From assembly GCF_000091325.1 (NCBI RefSeq), contig NC_014012.1:3666500-3730499 (forward strand): a DNA stretch of 64,000 nucleotides, given 5' to 3'. Every line of letters starts with the position of its first letter. Position 1 is the stretch's first letter. Of the stretch, positions 3,034 to 61,402 are shown piece by piece. The translations under genes were made by a program, and so were the position numbers. Below the pieces are notes generated by a model, which saw only the letters and a list, made by a program, of their open reading frames with translations, was not told the origin of the DNA and did not search any database. Source of the stretch: Shewanella violacea DSS12. Its GTDB lineage: Bacteria; Pseudomonadota; Gammaproteobacteria; Enterobacterales; Shewanellaceae.

Positions 3034-4578
3034 ATGACAAGTCAGCACAACAGATCCACTGGCAGAGAGATCAAAATCCCCGCCGGAGAAGAACTGATCT
3101 CGAGTACCAACAAGCATGGGATCATTACCTACGTAAACCAAACCTTTATCGATATCTCCGGCTTCAGTGAATCTGAACTCATTGGGCAGAAGCATAATAT
3201 CGTCAGACATCAGGACATGCCTGCTGGTGCATTTAAAGAACTCTGGAGTAAGCTCAAGTCGGGTCAATCTTGGAGAGGCGTGGTCAAAAATCGCTGTAAG
3301 GATGGTTGCTATTACTGGGTGGATGCCTTCGTCTCTCCTCTGTTTGAGAAAGGTGAGATAATAGGTTATCAGTCGGTTCGCATTAAAGCCTCAAGCCAGC
3401 TTATCACCAGAGCCGAGCAAATCTATAAACGCCTCAATCAGGGAAAAACTGTCTCCGATCCCATGAGCTTAAATCAGAAACGCATCTTATCGGCTATCTG
3501 TGCCACCTCAGGTTTAGCGGTGGCTGGCTCAATCTGGGGCTGGGGCGTTATTTTTGCCGGCGCCCTGCTCATGGGACTCAACTTAGCCATCTTCTACGAC
3601 GAGGCCTTTAGAATTCCAGCCAAATTAATGAAAATGAAACAGGGCTACGACTCTGTGAGCCGTTTCGTCTATTGTGGCCGCGATACCTCCTCCCTACTCG
3701 ACTTTCAAATGTTGATGCAAAATGCAAAATTACAAGGGGTCCTAGGTCGCTCCCAAGACAATGCCAAGCATATTGATAATATAGCCGACGAGCTTATCGT
3801 CGCTGCCAATCAAACCCATGCAGGTTTAGAAAATGAAAGCCTGCAAGTGGAGCAGATAGCCAGCGCCATGGAGGAGATGGGCTCAACCATAGCTGAAGTC
3901 GCCATGAATACTCAATCGACCTCAAACAGCATAGATGAAACGTACCAGCTCTGTCATGACAGCCGCATCAAGATGCAATCTAATACCAGCAATATAGCCT
4001 CACTCACTCAGGCGGTCACAGAAGCCGCGGCTAATGCGCACCTCCTTAATAAGGAAGCCGAGCAAGTAGCTGCAGCCATGTCTGAGATTGATTCCATCGC
4101 CGAGCAGACAAACTTACTGGCGCTTAATGCCGCCATCGAAGCCGCACGCGCCGGAGAACAAGGACGTGGTTTTGCCGTAGTCGCCGATGAAGTCAGAGCC
4201 CTATCGAAACGCACTCAACAATCGACCAATAGCATCTCTCAAAGTGTCGATAAGATGTTTGCCATGATAACCAGCTGGGCCGGTCAAATGGATTTAAGCC
4301 GAGCTCAAGCAGAAGTATGCGCCACCGACACCCAAGCATCAGCGGATAAGATTGATACCATCTACCAGGCTATCAGCACCATACACTCGCTGGCGCAGCA
4401 AAACTCGGTTGCCGCAGACCAGCAAAAAATGGTGGTCGATGAGATTAATCAAAATATTGCCGCCATCAGCCTAGCCAGCAACGATAACTTACGCGCCGTG
4501 CAAACCGTCGAAGCCTCGGTACTCGAGCTAAAAATAAATGCCGATAAAGCCAAGAGCCTGAGAGATACTTTCGGCTAA
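3034..4578 (+). CDS. aer: Aer-like PAS-domain methyl-accepting chemotaxis protein
   Basis: A 514-residue receptor, similar in length to E. coli Aer. An N-terminal PAS domain spans about residues 20-115 and includes the Aer-type [10 protein letters not shown] segment. A hydrophobic hairpin at about 151-187 anchors it in the inner membrane with no sizeable periplasmic domain. The rest is a signalling domain with the highly conserved MCP hairpin tip ([19 protein letters not shown]). Such proteins sense redox state through PAS-bound FAD and signal to CheA/CheW for energy taxis. The ATG follows an AGGAAG ribosome-binding site. Other PAS-MCPs share this architecture, so the ligand is inferred. Confidence 0.85.
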
Positions 4579-12070: not shown

Positions 12071-12610
12071 AATGTTATACCTTTGAACTCTTAAATTTAT
12101 AAAGCTGTGGCAGATAAGTGCCTCGTCAATCAAACCTGAGTGAGATCCACGAATACTTGATTATATTTTATTATGACCTGCAGATTATCAATCTCTGAGG
12201 TTGGCTATCATCAGCGTCAAACACGCTAAAACACAGCCTTTATTGGCGCCGAAGTTTACAGCATCCAGTACTTTAGACCTAGAATATGAGTCACTAATTT
12301 TGCAATTGTTCTAAAAAACGAACAGGTGCGACAATTCTGTTATGGATTTTGATAAGCATTAATTAGATACCAGCAAATGGCAGGTAATCATTAGCATCAA
12401 AAACCAGCAAGACCTTATCGTCCCCCCTGCCAATTTCATCAGCTAACACAGGCCCAAACAGCATTATTCTAGCTACAATTGGCGTTATCTCATTTTTGTT
12501 CATATTTCTTCATATTTTGTCAAAATTCATTCATCCCATGCATGACTCCTGTTCACATTCCTACTCTATATTGGTGTCATCGCAGATAAGATCACTAGAG
12601 AGAATCCGAC
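12071..12610. other. Intergenic region between the purine permease and torE
   Basis: A 540-bp divergent promoter region. The torE-proximal part carries TorR-box-like decamers (separate entry). The permease-proximal 350 bp are AT-rich. I looked for the conserved purine riboswitch core there and found none. No additional gene is supported. Confidence 0.55.
12496..12558 (+). promoter_or_regulatory. TorR-binding decamers (tor boxes) upstream of torECAD
   Basis: Three matches to the E. coli tor box CTGTTCATAT: TTGTTCATAT at 12496-12505 (9/10), TTCTTCATAT directly abutting at 12506-12515 (8/10) and CTGTTCACAT at 12549-12558 (9/10). They lie 53-115 bp upstream of the torE ATG. The direct-repeat arrangement is that of the TorR operator in E. 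coli, so TMAO-dependent activation by TorR is expected. Confidence 0.8.
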
Positions 12611-12781
12611 ATGACAGAGCACACGTCATCAGAATCAGTCAAGCAAGTTAAAACCAAGGAGCTTAAAGCCCTAGGTTTTATCATCTTCTTGTTGTTTCCC
12701 ATCGTCACCATCACAGGCATCTGTGCCTATGGCTTCGTTATCTGGATGATCCAGGCATTTGGCGGAGTCGTCGGCCACTAA
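12611..12781 (+). CDS. torE: TorE, small membrane protein of the TMAO reductase operon
   Basis: A 56-residue protein (MTEHTSSESVK...) with a charged N-terminus and one long hydrophobic segment at residues 22-50, the NapE/TorE family layout. It is the first gene of the tor operon, 64 bp before torC, directly downstream of the tor boxes. TorE is found in front of torCAD in Shewanella; its role in TMAO respiration is not well established. An AGAGAA motif precedes the ATG. The recognition rests on size, topology and context. Confidence 0.85.
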   Translation: MTEHTSSESVKQVKTKELKALGFIIFLLFPIVTITGICAYGFVIWMIQAFGGVVGH

Positions 12782-12845
12782 ACCGATTTAATCAGACGTA
12801 AAACAAACAAAACGAAACAAATTTTAAGATTTAAAGGATGCTGTT

Positions 12846-14030
12846 ATGAAGTGGTTTATCAACATTTGGCGCACACTGACCAAGCCTGCCAAGTACCTAA
12901 CCTTAGGCACGGTCAGTCTCTCGGCCTTTCTTATGGGCATCATCTTCTGGGGCGGCTTTAACACGGCTCTTGAGATGACCAATACCGAAGAGTTCTGTAT
13001 CAGCTGCCACAGTATGGAGAGCATGCCATACAAGGAGCTACAGGAAACCGTTCACTGGTCGAATCATTCCGGCGTACGAGCTACCTGTCCAGACTGCCAC
13101 GTGCCACACAACTGGAGCCGTAAGATTGCCCGTAAAATAGAGGCCTCTCACGACATGTGGGGCTGGATGCTACAGTCGGTAAATACCCCAGAGAAGTTTG
13201 AAGATAAACGCCTCGAGATGGCCAGTCGAGAGTGGAAACGATTCGACCGTGATAACTCTCTCGCCTGTAAAAACTGTCATAACTACGACTCAATGAAGTG
13301 GGAAGACATGTCAAAACTGGCTCAGAAGCAGATGAAGCGAGCCGCAGAGATAGATCAAAGCTGTGTCGATTGCCACAAGGGTATTGCCCACCACCTCCCT
13401 GATATGGGCACCGCACGAGCCCCCGAATTAATCGCTCAGGTAGGTTCTGGTGTCACTTCACTACAGACCGAACAGATCTACTTCACCGCCTTGACTAAGC
13501 CGTTATTCTACAACGACCACACAGATGTTGAAGCTGGAACCCTGAACATAGCCACTAAGGTCAAGGTATTAGAGACCAAAGGCAAGCGCGTTAAGGTTGG
13601 CATAGATGGCTGGCGTAAGAAGGTCGGCGCAGGCCGCGTCATCTACTACGATTTCGGCATCAACATACTGTCGGCTCAACTGACCAAGGATGCGGCGCTC
13701 GAAGAAGGCGTGATGCAGGTCTTCGAAGAGAAGGAAGATCCTATGACAGGCCTGATTTGGCAACGTGTCGAAGCTAAAATCTGGACCGAAAAAGACTATC
13801 TGGTCTCAGATCTTCAACCTCTGTGGGACTATGCCCGTGAGACATATTCCACCAGCTGTAGTGTGTGCCACACCCAGCCTGACGAAAAACACTTCGATGC
13901 CAACAGCTGGCCGGGAATGTTCCAGGGCATGATAGCTTTCGTCAACATGGACCAAGATACCCAAGCCTTAGTGCAGAAGTACCTGCAAGAACACTCATCT
14001 ACTTTCGACAAGTCAGCGCATGAATTATAG
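12846..14030 (+). CDS. torC: TorC, pentaheme c-type cytochrome of TMAO respiration
   Basis: A 394-residue NapC/NirT-type quinol dehydrogenase. A membrane anchor lies at about residues 19-37. Four heme-binding CxxCH motifs follow at 51-55, 81-85, 141-145 and 173-177, and a fifth at 338-342 lies in the C-terminal domain specific to TorC. It takes electrons from the menaquinol pool and passes them to periplasmic TorA; in E. coli the C-terminal domain also interacts with TorS signalling. The ATG follows AAAGGATG. The last codons (HSSTFDKSAHEL) are echoed in the repeats just downstream. Length and heme number match the family. Confidence 0.96.
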   Translation: MKWFINIWRTLTKPAKYLTLGTVSLSAFLMGIIFWGGFNTALEMTNTEEFCISCHSMESMPYKELQETVHWSNHSGVRATCPDCHVPHNWSRKIARKIEASHDMWGWMLQSVNTPEKFEDKRLEMASREWKRFDRDNSLACKNCHNYDSMKWEDMSKLAQKQMKRAAEIDQSCVDCHKGIAHHLPDMGTARAPELIAQVGSGVTSLQTEQIYFTALTKPLFYNDHTDVEAGTLNIATKVKVLETKGKRVKVGIDGWRKKVGAGRVIYYDFGINILSAQLTKDAALEEGVMQVFEEKEDPMTGLIWQRVEAKIWTEKDYLVSDLQPLWDYARETYSTSCSVCHTQPDEKHFDANSWPGMFQGMIAFVNMDQDTQALVQKYLQEHSSTFDKSAHEL

Positions 14031-14040
14031 GACTGAGTAT

Positions 14041-14115
14041 ATGAAAACAAAAATTGAAATAATCAGTCTGAATGTAGCACATTCATACCCAAATCCAGAC
14101 AAGTCAGCGCACTAG
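14041..14115 (+). CDS. Mini-ORF 1 between torC and torA (24 residues)
   Basis: Reads [11 protein letters not shown] followed by VAHSYPNPDKSAH and a TAG stop. The ATG comes 10 nt after the torC stop and is preceded by AGGACTGA, the same ribosome-binding element as torA. Its last residues (DKSAH) match the C-terminus of TorC. No known function is recognised. It could be a translated leader that couples torC and torA translation, or simply a by-product of the duplication. The frame is intact in both copies. Confidence 0.4.
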   Translation: MKTKIEIISLNVAHSYPNPDKSAH

Positions 14116-14132
14116 TATTGAGGACTGAAAAC

Positions 14133-14207
14133 ATGAAAACAAAAATTGAAATCATCAGTCTGAATGCAGCTCATTCATTCTCAAATTTCGACAAGTCAGC
14201 GCACTAG
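14133..14207 (+). CDS. Mini-ORF 2 between torC and torA (24 residues)
   Basis: The second copy of the unit: [11 protein letters not shown] followed by [13 protein letters not shown] and a TAG stop, 17 nt before the torA ATG. It differs from mini-ORF 1 at five residues and two silent positions, and has the same length and stop. It has its own AGGACTGA element at 14121-14128. Expression is unproven. Confidence 0.4.
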
Positions 14208-14224
14208 CAATAAGGACTGAAAAT

Positions 14225-16717
14225 ATGAACAGAAGACACTTTTTAAAAGGACTTGTATCGACATCTTATGTGGTCCTGAGCGGCGCATCGGTACTGGCAC
14301 CACTCAATGCCTTAGCGGCTTCCGGTGCTAAGTCGAAAGATGGCTGGTTAACCACGGGCACTCACTTTGGCGCGTTTAAGATAAAGCGTAAGAACGGCGT
14401 TATCGATCAGGTTAAGCCATTCGACTTAGACAAGTATCCTACGGATATGATTAACGGCATCAAGGGTCTGGTCTATAACCCATCTAGGGTTCGCTACCCT
14501 ATGGTGCGTCTCGACTTCCTGCTAAACGGACATAAGAGTGACACCACACAGCGCGGCGATTTTCGTTTCGTCCGTGTCACCTGGGACAAGGCACTGAACC
14601 TGCTGAAAGATTCCCTGGATGAGGTGCAGACTAAATACGGTCCATCTGGCCTACATGCGGGTCAGACCGGCTGGCGCGCCACCGGACAACTGCATTCAAG
14701 CACCAGTCATATGCAACGCGCCATAGGTATGCACGGCAACTTCGTCAAGAAGATTGGCGACTACTCCACCGGTGCTGGCCAAACCATCATGCCTTACATC
14801 TTAGGCTCCACCGAAGTCTATGCTCAGGGTACCTCCTGGCCACTGATCCTCGAAGAGTCTAAGACCATCATCTTGTGGTCAAACGATCCTTACAAGAACC
14901 TACAGGTAGGCTGGAACGCCGAGACCCATGAGTCTTTCGCCTACCTAGCTCAGCTCAAGGAGAAGGTTAAGCAAGGTAAGATCCGCGTGATCAGCATAGA
15001 TCCTGTGGTGACTAAGACCCAGAAATACTTAGGTTGTGAGCAGCTCTACGTCAACCCACAGACAGATGTGGCGCTGATGCTAGGTATTGCCCATGAGATG
15101 GTGACCAAGGGCTTGCACGATAAGAAGTTTATCGACGGCTACAGCCTAGGTTTCGACAGATTTCTGCCATACCTGCTCGGTGAGAGCGACGGCGTGGCCA
15201 AGACACCTGAATGGGCCAGTAATATCTCAGGGGTAAGCCCTGAGATCATCCGCGATCTGGCCAATGTAATGACTAAGGGCCGTACGCAACTGATGATGGG
15301 CTGGTGTATTCAGCGCCAACAACACGGCGAACAGCCTTACTGGATGGCGGCAGTTCTGGCCACCATGATAGGTCAAATAGGCTTACCCGGCGGCGGCATA
15401 AGCTATGGCCACCATTACTCTGGTATTGGCGTGCCTTCATCTGGAGCTGCCGCACCTGGAGCATTTCCCCGTAATCTGGATGCCGATCAGAAACCCTTGT
15501 TCGATAGCAATGATTTCAAGGGCGCCAGTAGCACCATTCCGGTTGCCCGCTGGATCGACGCAATTATGGAACCCGGCAAGACTATCGATGCCAACGGATC
15601 TAAGGTCACCTTCCCAGATATCAAGATGATGGTGTTCTCGGGCAACAACCCCTGGAACCATCATCAAGACAGAAACAAGATGAAGCTGGCATTCCAAAAG
15701 CTTGAGTGTGTGGTCACTATCGACATGAACTGGACGGCTACCTGCCGCTTCTCAGACATAGTCCTACCGGCTTGTACCACCCTAGAGCGTAACGATATCG
15801 ATGTGTACGGCAGCTACGCCAACCGTGGCATACTGGCGATGCATAAGATGGTCGAGCCTCTGTTCGAGAGTCTGTCTGACTTCGAGATCTTCACTCGTTT
15901 CGCTGCTGTCATGGGTAAAGAGAAAGAATATACCCGCGACATGAGCGAAGAGGACTGGTTGAAGAAGCTGTACAAGGACTGTAAAAAGGCCAATGACGGC
16001 AAGTTTGATATGCCGGACTTCGATACCTTCTGGAAAGATGGTTATGTTCACTTCGGTGAAGGTAAGCCCTGGACCCGTCACGCGGACTTCAGAGAAGATC
16101 CTGAAATAAATCCTCTGGGCACTCCATCTGGACTGATTGAAATTTTCAGCCGCAAGATAGCTCAATTTGGCTATGATGATTGTCCAGGCCATCCAACCTG
16201 GATGGAGAAGACAGAACGTAGCCATGGCGGTCCAGGTTCAAACACCTTCCCGGTTTGGATGCAGTCATGTCATCCGGATAAGCGTCTGCACTCACAGATG
16301 TGTGAGTCGAAAGAGTACCGTGAAACCTATACGGTTAAAGGTCGAGAGCCTGTATATTTAAGCCCAGAAGATGCCAAGTCTCGTGGCATCAAGGATGGCG
16401 ATATCGTGCGGGTGTTTAACGACCGTGGTCAACTCCTTGCCGGCGCAGTAATATCTGACAGCTTCCCCAAAGGCATCATACGTATCCACGAAGGCGCTTG
16501 GTATGGTCCGGTTGGTAAAGATGGTAGCAAGGAAGGCGGCGCCGAGATTGGCGCCCTGTGTAGCTATGGCGATCCAAACACACTAACCCAAGATATCGGC
16601 ACCTCTAAGCTAGCTCAAGCTTGCGCGGCTTATACTTGTCTGGTTGAATTTGAGAAGTTCCGTGGCAAAATCCCTCAAGTCAGTTCATTCGATGGACCGG
16701 TTGAGACCTTGATTTAA
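14225..16717 (+). CDS. torA: TorA, periplasmic molybdoenzyme TMAO reductase
   Basis: An 830-residue member of the DMSO reductase family, the usual TorA length. It begins with a twin-arginine signal (NRRHFLKG, residues 2-9) and a cleavage region near LNALAA (28-32), so it is folded in the cytosol and exported by Tat. The serine of [11 protein letters not shown] (S181 of the precursor) corresponds to the molybdenum ligand of TorA/DMSO reductases. No N-terminal Cys cluster is present, so there is no iron-sulfur centre. It reduces TMAO to trimethylamine in the periplasm with electrons from TorC. The C-terminal domain (about 700-825) is the molydopterin dinucleotide-binding barrel. AAGGACTGA precedes the ATG. 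Confidence 0.97.
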
Positions 16718-16738: not shown

Positions 16739-17455
16739 ATGGAAAACAGCATGACTAACCCAGCAATATCAGAGGATCAGATGAATAATACAGACATGAA
16801 TAAAGCGCGAGCCATGGTCTATCGCCTGCTCTCCTCTTTGTTTGCTAAAGAGATCGATCATCAACTGCTCCATGAATTGACCAGCGAGCCAGCCAAGGCC
16901 TTCTGGACTCAACTCGCCAGTGAGCCGAGCTTTAAACAAGATGTCGATACCTTGGTTACTCTGCTGGAAAGCTTAACCTCAGATAAGGCCTTGCTGGAAC
17001 TTGCCGCCGATTATTGTGGCCTGTTTCTGGTGGGCACTAAACACAGCGCCTCACCCTATGCCAGCCTCTATCTCCAAGATACCAACAAGAGCGCTGCAGA
17101 TAGTCAGAGCAATAACAGCCCTAAAGGCACTAAGCGTGGCGATCAGCCCTTGCTGTTTGGTGAGCAGCATCAAATGATGGTGCAGTTTCTTAAACAGAGT
17201 CAGTTACAGGTTCAAACCAGCTTTCCTGAGCCTGCGGATCACTTAGCGGTGATCTTGGCTTATGTTGAGCATCTTTGCTTATCGGCTAGTAACGAGGAGC
17301 AGCTTAGCTTTATCGAGTCATACCTCAACAGCTGGCTTGGAAAGTTTACCGCTAAAGTGACTCAGGGCGACAGTGGCAAATTCTACTCTGCCTTAGCAGG
17401 CTTGACACTATCTTGGGTTAGATCTGACTTAGTAGGATTAACAGAGGAAGGTTAA
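16739..17455 (+). CDS. torD: TorD, TorA-specific chaperone
   Basis: A 238-residue acidic cytoplasmic protein of the TorD/DmsD family. Family motifs are the N-terminal [16 protein letters not shown] helix, the central DYCGLFLVG and an [16 protein letters not shown] segment close to the conserved E-P-D-H motif. TorD binds the TorA signal sequence and the apoenzyme, aiding cofactor insertion before Tat export. It starts 21 bp after torA. ATG 16739 has AGGATGG upstream; internal ATGs at 16751, 16781 and 16796 are alternatives, the last being closest to shorter homologues. The operon ends in a perfect palindrome. Confidence 0.93.
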
Positions 17456-26153: not shown

Positions 26154-26545
26154 CATTTAGTTAAGTTAAGTTAAGTTAAGTTAAAACTAGCCCAATGAAC
26201 AATGAGACAGCAGAATAAAATTGCAGCCGACTCGTAATTGCTGACGCATGTCTTTTATTGCTGTCTCTAATCCCAAATCAGCATCTGATTAAGCTAGTTT
26301 GTCGCTCTAAAGCACTCATCTTTCCGCCCTTAACCAGGTGTTCTGACACAGTAAGAACACTCAAAATCCGGCACAGCCGCGTAATCATAACCCCTAGTCA
26401 GTTCCCCCCAAGTTTATAAGAAAGCTAAGTACTGCGGCTGCTCGAAGCGTGTTTATAGTCGAGTCGAGAATCAATTCATCGAGAACCTAATAGGCTTCAA
26501 CTATACTTACTGCAGGTTTCCGACTCAAATTCGTACAGTCTAAGG
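26154..26545. other. Non-coding gap with AGTTA microsatellite
   Basis: A 392-bp stretch between the PilZ gene and the orphan binding-protein gene. It begins with five tandem AGTTA units (26159-26183). The rest has no gene-like frame and no clear terminator or operator. Confidence 0.55.
26159..26183. repeat. (AGTTA)5 microsatellite
   Basis: Five perfect AGTTA units start 6 bp after the PilZ stop codon. Their position at the 3' end of a gene parallels the heptamer arrays near 43.9 and 61.2 kb. Confidence 0.9.
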
Positions 26546-33283: not shown

Positions 33284-34281
33284 AACTTTTCCTAAAATAG
33301 TATAGGTTTTCGAAACCAGACAAGAGCAACAAATAACCCGGAATATGCCAGTCTGTTTTTAGACCTTAGCCGTTAAGCTCAACACTAAACTAAATCTAAT
33401 CTAGAACCTAGAACCTAGAACCTAGAACCTAGAAAAAAATATTATTGCAGGCTATGACATTCCGTTTACAATTAATAGTTAATATCCTAATAGCCATACA
33501 AAAAACTCTTCCCCCCATAAAATCATAACGTATGATTTTAACCATATAAAATCTTTTTCAAATTTTAAATAAACAAGACTGACATCCATAGTTTATGCTG
33601 CAGTAGCCTTCCCCACCCTAACGGTTGATTGCCTTCATACAGAGAAACAACACGCCACGTTTCCAAATCTTGTGACAATCCTCAGATAACAGGCTCATTA
33701 TAAATTAGCTTAGCGGGTACTAGCCAAGTGTCATCAGTCTGTACTTCCTCCCAACTCACAGAATGCCCCACTTAGAATTTCCCACTTAGAATATGCCATA
33801 AACTTGTCCGATTAGTTTTATGGGTAAGCAGCTCATGATAATTAATTATAGACTTGATATGTAATCTGGTCCCTTTGTGAAACCGCACCCGGATGGAAGC
33901 ACCTAGCGAATCAAGCATAATTGACCCACAAGACTCTTTCTACGAGAATTAATCAACAAGAATGGCTCTACAAGAAAGAAGACCTTATTCGCTCCCCCAC
34001 CTTCAGCTCTGTTCAGCGCTGCGCTCATAGCCACCCGTTCATCATTGTTAACAAGGTTAAAACAATGTAACTTACACGGGTGATATATTCACTGCCTAGA
34101 CTGGCAGGAAATACGAGGGGAATAAAATGTACACTCACTTAGGAACAATATTAAAAGCAACACGTTAAATATATAGTGAATCAGTTATATATAAAACCAA
34201 CTTAAAAAACTGACAGGGTAAACGCGCAAGGCGTGTATAAAACCTTAGGCATTCACTACAGTATCAAATAATGGAGTATAA
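33284..34281. other. Long AT-rich non-coding gap
   Basis: Nearly 1 kb without a convincing gene. It contains the (CTAGAAC)5 array (33401-33435). A 13-codon frame at 34127-34168 (MYTHLGTILKATR) has an unusually good ribosome-binding site (GAGGGG) but no other support. The composition is more AT-rich than the neighbouring housekeeping regions, in keeping with an accessory stretch. Confidence 0.5.
33401..33435. repeat. (CTAGAAC)5 heptanucleotide array
   Basis: Four perfect CTAGAAC units and a fifth ending CTAGAAA. One of three heptameric tandem arrays in this window. Confidence 0.9.
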
Positions 34282-43904: not shown

Positions 43905-43936
43905 GTTTGAATGCAAAGTTTTAAGCTTTAAGTTTT

Positions 43937-43964
43937 AAGCTCTAAGCTCTAAGCTCTAAGCTCT
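43937..43964. repeat. (AAGCTCT)4 heptanucleotide array
   Basis: Four perfect units just downstream of ytjB, embedded in a TAAGTTTTAAG-rich stretch. The IS3 element lies 17 bp beyond. The stretch AGTTTTAAGT occurs on both sides of the element. Confidence 0.9.
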
Positions 43965-44007
43965 AAGTTTTAAGTTTGATATGACCCCGGTTAAGTGGAC
44001 ACGGGGT

Positions 44008-61188: not shown

Positions 61189-61223
61189 TTCTAGGTATGG
61201 TTTTCACGACGGAGCTTGTTCGA

Positions 61224-61251
61224 GCGGTAAGCGGTAAGCGGTAAGCGGTAA
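61224..61251. repeat. (GCGGTAA)4 heptanucleotide array
   Basis: Four perfect units 36 bp after the GGDEF/EAL stop codon. The third heptamer array in this window. Confidence 0.9.
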
Positions 61252-61402
61252 GTGAATTTAGAACGAGATGAGCTAAGAGTAAATCAAAATTATCATGTTG
61301 AACTCTATATCACAGAGTTCTCAATCCACCTTTCAAATCGAAGCTATCTTAAAGCTTTCTCGGCCTTTTCTTATACCTTAAAACTGCTTTTCTACAGGCA
61401 AT

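Follow-up and report, generated by a model that had tools for sequence, protein, structure and literature searches.

Short open reading frames (ORFs) that lie between two genes of an operon and act on the downstream gene are already known: mgtQ, an 8-amino-acid ORF between mgtC and mgtB of Salmonella, affects the translation of the gene behind it (PMC8092293). Here we describe a comparable arrangement between torC and torA of Shewanella violacea DSS12, located in a stretch of 64,000 nucleotides (the window; contig NC_014012.1, positions 3,666,500 to 3,730,499; all coordinates below count from its first letter). The junction holds two copies of a 92-bp unit, each containing a mini-ORF of 24 codons; judged from the genomes compared, this is a real, lineage-restricted and copy-variable tandem cassette with moderate indications that its frames are read, and its function is putative. 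The first-pass annotation of this DNA had considered the arrangement to be without described precedent, which is wrong in kind given mgtQ; what is unusual is the tandem array with its variable copy number. The likeness to mgtQ (PMC8092293) consists in a short ORF with its own Shine-Dalgarno (SD) sequence, start and stop between two operon genes, with RNA folds involved in both systems. However, the effect on downstream translation was shown for mgtQ and is proposed here; the translation of mgtQ frees a sequestered mgtB ribosome-binding site (RBS), whereas at torC-torA the RBS predicted to be sequestered is that of the mini-ORF itself; and the torC-torA units come as tandem copies.

Three other described systems can be compared. 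Termination-reinitiation coupling (PMC10666635) shares the short stop-to-start distances (10, 17 and 17 nt from torC through mini-ORFs 1 and 2 to torA), but the torC-torA cistrons do not overlap (except by 4 nt in a shifted frame of genome G074), their distances are near the reported limit and the intermediate cistrons have only 24 codons. The engineered bicistronic design (PMC5995908) likewise places a short first cistron ahead of a second; in contrast, the torC-torA units are natural, repeated and situated between two genes. The ribosome termination structure (PMC7518266) is a stable structure directly behind a stop codon, as is predicted at torC, whereas the structure described below includes an SD and a start codon as well and recurs with each copy of the cassette. 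Within the literature searched on tor and Shewanella, short ORFs, repeats and coupling, most subscription journals being outside its scope, no title or abstract opening describes the torC-torA junction.

A tandem 92-bp unit between torC and torA

The two units lie head to tail on the forward strand (14029-14120 and 14121-14212), align with 85% identity and zero gaps, and are delimited by Tandem Repeats Finder as 14007-14229 (period 92, 2.4 copies, score 318). As proposed in the first-pass annotation, each comprises an SD, an ATG, 24 codons and a stop: mini-ORF 1 (14041-14115, ending in TAG) is preceded by the SD-like site AGGACTGA at 14029-14036, which overlaps TAG, the torC stop codon; mini-ORF 2 (14133-14207, also ending in TAG) by AGGACTGA at 14121-14128; and torA by a third AGGACTGA at 14213-14220. 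The three closely spaced ATGs (14041, 14133 and 14225) are 92 nt apart, the torA start falling one period beyond that of mini-ORF 2. An additional in-frame ATG at 14020 would lengthen mini-ORF 1 to 31 codons.

Reading frames and family matches bear out the order torE-torC-mini1-mini2-torA-torD given by that annotation, an operon of the torECAD type on the forward strand: torC (12846-14030), a pentaheme cytochrome of 394 amino acids matching TIGR02162 above its cut-off; torA (14225-16717), a trimethylamine N-oxide reductase of 830 amino acids (TIGR02164, 1561 bits); torE (12611-12781), of 56 amino acids (TIGR02972, E 6.8e-22; 77.0 bits, slightly below the cut-off of 77.75); and torD (16739-17455), a chaperone of 238 amino acids (NF003442, E 2.4e-80). 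The torC of the window terminates in DKSAHEL (14018-14030), two codons beyond the DKSAH at which its closest relatives stop. The torC-torA junction showed neither promoter-like nor terminator-like sites, and an Rfam scan of 12500-14500 gave three matches up to E 5, none of them above the gathering threshold and none at the junction.

Distribution and history of the unit

TorC (E ≤ 1e-120) was present in 82 of the 129 genomes of the genus, and the junctions of all 82 were read; one more, in which TorC is a fragment (MAG-BB-1), brought the number to 83. Units occurred in seven of these genomes, in one, two or three copies each and 12 in total, always between torC and torA: two in S. violacea, both with intact frames, two in S. 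benthica DSM 8812, two in G074, three in G073, and one each in S. canadensis, G082 and MAG-BB-1. Because six further genomes have homologues at this very junction, the unit is more than a chance occurrence. DNA and model searches of the remaining 46 genomes of the genus gave no strong match, and at 15 loci not titled Shewanella the unit was absent, the torC-torA gap being 12-29 nt. At three Colwellia loci the torC-torA gap is 29 nt long and contains a further ATG, 15 nt ahead of the aligned torA ATG and in the same frame, which is perhaps the real torA start there.

A covariance model built from the 12 units, searched in the genus under strict filters that weak copies could escape, recovered the 12 copies in the 129 genomes, with the next match at E 0.017; nine matches fell between E 0.017 and 0.1, of which seven were torC tails and two (in G055 and G111) lay elsewhere. 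Among 394 genomes of the order, E ≤ 0.01 was reached by S. violacea and by three genomes belonging to a single, distant genus (E 0.002), whose three loci had no torC or torA match. A search of the S. violacea genome itself (4,962,103 bases, one contig) at E ≤ 10 returned, besides the array, the adjoining torC tail (E 0.07) and four matches of 15-17 nt (E 0.8-5.5). A dispersed repeat or miniature mobile element was rejected on this basis, the unit occupying one site in this genome and all 12 strong matches that passed the strict filters in the genus being at torC-torA. A link to the deep sea was rejected as a rule because S. benthica KT99 (9856 m) and G111, taken to be the Mariana Trench strain MTB7, have no unit.

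In a tree of torC and torA pieces from 23 genomes, the bearers fall into two clades, one with S. violacea, G074, G073 and S. benthica including KT99 (support 100) and the other with S. canadensis, G082 and MAG-BB-1 (support 100); unit-less lineages (G086/G028, G118 and S. atlantica) stand between or beside them, some nodes being weak (47 and 59). With 12-21 differences in 75 nt, units from one clade are clearly homologous to those from the other. Because homologous units occur in two clades with unit-less lineages interspersed, the history was either one old gain followed by several losses, or a gain and a transfer. Among the ten units with intact frames, copies of the same genome were most alike wherever there was more than one, as expected under homogenisation or re-duplication, and changes in copy number were presumably caused by recombination between repeats. 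The S. canadensis torC tail has diverged to DKTSH, while at the end of the mini-ORF and in the stretch behind it the S. atlantica tail and leader are retained. At three loci of the canadensis clade torC ends in DKTSH or VKTSH and the mini-ORF still in DKSAH.

Origin of the unit

The first-pass annotation had derived the end of the unit from torC. This holds for about the last 18-23 nt (GACAAGTCAGCGCA and a little before it) only, which are plainly common with the torC 3' end. Head-to-tail 92-bp copies sharing this tail, the pattern looked for as a mark of tandem junction duplication, were found, and such a duplication is the likely source of the tail. Similarity upstream of the tail was examined in ten of the 12 units, the intact ones, leaving out the two of G074. 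In alignments to the own torC anchored at the right end, 3-7 of 200 shuffles were as good as the benthica and G073 units, 11 as good as unit 2 of S. violacea, 46 as good as its unit 1, and 42-54 as good as the three units of the canadensis clade. The outcome of an unanchored local comparison was weak, 41-707 of 1000 shuffles being as good for the own torC and 50-726 for that of S. atlantica. These similarities lend weak support to a torC derivation of the remainder. An origin from the torA 5' end found no support (217-981 of 1000 shuffles as good).

These results bear directly on a neutral explanation, in which the array is a tolerated by-product: a tandem duplication spanning the junction would yield a frame that opens after a copied SD and closes with the torC tail and stop, and the array would drift and be lost by recombination without any benefit. 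The common tail is the expected product of such an event, and the torC similarity upstream of it beats most shuffles in six of the seven violacea-clade units tested (all except unit 1 of S. violacea). Less readily accommodated are the canadensis-clade units, whose likeness to torC upstream of the tail fell short of significance, and the lack of similarity to the torA 5' end.

Coding constraint on the mini-ORFs

The frames are intact in ten of the 12 units, and the intact peptides, a few deviations apart, have in common the core SL.AAHS..N.DKSAH. For all pairs among these ten units, the ratio of non-synonymous to synonymous differences per site (pN/pS) was 0.39 for codons 2-24 and 0.52 for codons 2-19; the two other reading frames of the codons 2-19 stretch gave 0.89 and 0.67. 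Two lineage-independent pairs were then compared with four choices of copies, giving pN/pS 0.28, 0.36, 0.42 and 0.36 for codons 2-24 (p 0.0005, 0.0010, 0.0081 and 0.0030) and 0.37, 0.47, 0.49 and 0.48 for codons 2-19 (p 0.011, 0.032, 0.032 and 0.025); codons 2-10 alone gave p 0.03-0.19. For torC, pS between the bearer clades was 0.68-0.80 and pN about 0.05, a deep divergence over which ten of the 12 frames have stayed open. The comparison thus suggests that the mini-ORF evolves more slowly than neutral sites and far less strictly than torC, under a moderate coding-like constraint, of which the DKSAH end may borrow a part from torC via gene conversion.

This pattern weighs against the neutral explanation: between the clades, units show 12-21 differences in 75 sites despite the high pS of torC, pN/pS is below 1, and pS per site exceeded pN in three of the four within-genome pairs compared. 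Favourable to it are the two copies of S. benthica, between which there are 0 synonymous and 4 non-synonymous changes. The largely conserved core and the low pN/pS would also suit a peptide of 24 residues with an activity of its own, directed for instance at TorA or TorC. We consider this highly improbable: the peptide is missing or frame-shifted in close relatives, it has no match in Pfam or NCBIfam up to E 1, and its DKSAH end belongs to torC.

Predicted RNA folding

A hairpin holding the SD of the mini-ORF is predicted in the units. Its SD arm, GG(A/G)CTG plus one base, can form 6-7 of 7 pairs with CAGTCT plus the preceding base in all 12 units when the register is set by hand; in the register of the alignment 81% of the cells pair, G073 being off by one base. 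In the window, the predicted partners of the two SD-like sites are CAGTCT at 14064-14069 and at 14156-14161, respectively. CAGTCT is invariant, including its third codon positions, and a second small hairpin downstream, GAATGC/GCATTC, has 3-6 of 6 pairs (at least five in 11 of the 12 units). The 52-nt hairpins of the window have predicted energies of -8.3 and -7.6 kcal/mol (z -2.23 and -2.21). Compared with synonymous recoding, ten units gave p 0.017-0.59. The percentage of paired positions and a covariation score exceeded shuffled alignments (1 and 14 of 500 shuffles, respectively), which relatedness alone can cause. For alignment A1, RNAalifold returned a different, weak structure of four pairs (-2.75 kcal/mol); alignments A2 and A3 mis-gapped the SD and were left out of the counts.

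In 160-nt contexts of 23 junctions, the predicted probability of being unpaired was 0.14-0.50 for the SDs of the 12 mini-ORFs, and 0.52-0.73 for the torA SD of the seven bearers, where that site is mostly unpaired; at 16 unit-less junctions the torA SD ranged from 0.18 to 0.73, and the openness in bearers exceeds that of nine of these 16. This speaks against an mgtQ-like sequestration of the downstream RBS, but in a 93-nt stretch of the window the CAGTC of mini-ORF 2 is predicted to fold onto the torA SD (z +0.76).

A hairpin so placed could also act as an insulator, that is, as a ribosome termination structure in the sense of PMC7518266, which right behind the torC stop would bar ribosomes from continuing into torA, with torA started independently at its own SD. 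Its SD arm begins within about 10 nt of the torC stop, the 52-nt folds of the window are stable relative to shuffled sequences, and the torA SD is the more open one by prediction; the fold is weak, however, in the benthica and G074 units, and the retained ATG and frame would be left unexplained. We regard the insulator as unlikely.

A putative relay of ribosomes to torA

The reading that we tentatively prefer is that the cassette was born at the torC-torA junction of one Shewanella lineage, varies in copy number, and is read by ribosomes that come off torC and step on to torA. The cassette, carrying the torC tail and stop, would grow and shrink through recombination between repeats. Each copy would be a minimal cistron with its own SD folded against codons 8-10 of the mini-ORF, and would therefore be initiated poorly unaided but opened and re-used by a ribosome terminating 10-17 nt upstream. 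Ribosomes leaving torC would step via mini-ORFs 1 and 2 to torA and keep the inserted stretch translated; the mini-ORFs, if translated, are most likely reached in this way. With more copies TorA synthesis would be less tied to TorC synthesis, because each step would lose ribosomes and the torA SD is more open. We infer translation, stepping and any effect on the TorC:TorA ratio from these features.

Published distances set the frame for this reading. In E. coli test pairs a separation of 38 nt lowers reinitiation by 80-100%, and shorter separations have variable effects (PMC10666635). By these tests a bare gap of 105-288 nt (194 nt in the window) would uncouple torA, and one of 10 nt may not; the 10-nt step may work and the 17-nt steps would work poorly.

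Several results weigh against the relay. PMC10666635 also reports that a gap of about 20 nt almost abolishes coupling, for which reason the neutral duplication is almost as likely as the stepping reading. Support for the fold is uneven: against dinucleotide shuffles the 12 units ranged from z -2.63 to +1.29, with low values for the canadensis clade and unit 1 of S. violacea and values around zero or higher for benthica and G074. In the window, z was -1.12 and -0.03 for the two 92-nt stretches. In short stretches that lack the upstream SD, CAGTC can instead pair with the SD following it: from mini-ORF 1 with that of mini-ORF 2 (z -1.35), and from mini-ORF 2 with that of torA (93-nt stretch, z +0.76). 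There was no compensatory excess, the single pair with a double change being matched by 173 of 500 shuffles. On the coding side, codons 11-19 alone were not significant in the independent pairs (p 0.08-0.31).

The distribution points in the same direction. The unit is absent from 76 of the 83 junctions, where the gap from the torC stop to torA is -4 to 33 nt (in one of them, L179, the torA start is only extrapolated). KT99 has none although it lies inside the S. violacea clade beside DSM 8812 (support only 63), and its state looks like a loss, the torA leader AAGGACTGGAACTATG being identical to the leader of benthica unit 1. In G074, an extra base is present in unit 1, within a stretch of A residues, and one base is missing from unit 2. 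These indels look real because the 14 genes in the 35 kb around the junction are each in a single frame (15 matches, one gene spanning two stretches); sequencing errors were rejected on this ground. The +1 and -1 changes fuse the G074 mini-ORFs into a 61-codon frame that opens in unit 1 and closes at a TGA, in a 4-nt overlap with the torA ATG. Such a frame, by which translation could go on unbroken as far as torA, is in favour of the relay; it may fairly be put down to luck, because a frame ending in the same overlap is also open in the last unit of G073.

The unit is therefore dispensable, as KT99 has none, both G074 frames are shifted and most junctions lack it. The comparison across Shewanella suggested by the first-pass annotation had a divided outcome: intact homologues with coding-like constraint in five other genomes, and a copy number of 0-3 with no unit in KT99 and shifted frames in G074. 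That annotation had named freely varying junctions with broken frames in close relatives as evidence against its proposal, and this is in part what was found; a role as an important regulator is for these reasons not supported. The same variation, copy numbers of 0, 1, 2 and 3 included, is what a tolerated by-product would show.

A stronger version of the relay, a copy-variable ladder of hairpin-gated cistrons in which the gain or loss of about 92 bp resets TorA:TorC in steps and leaves promoter and genes untouched, seems doubtful to us. If stepping is true, the junctions with 0, 1, 2 and 3 units and the frame-shifted pair form a natural series for measuring the passage of ribosomes through successive tiny cistrons, and repeat copy number would be a means of tuning protein ratios within an operon. 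If the array is neutral, junction duplications yield persistent mini-ORFs that look translatable, which calls for caution in the annotation of small proteins.

Other repeats in the window

The window contains another long tandem duplication at 2572-2799, with two copies of a unit of about 115 bp and 90% matches. The ORF before it ends at 2307 and the one behind it starts at 3034; it is overlapped only by short ORFs of 53 and 75 amino acids. Short arrays with units of 5 and 7 bp lie at 26159-26184, 33401-33434, 43916-43977 and 61223-61252; three of the four are perfect.
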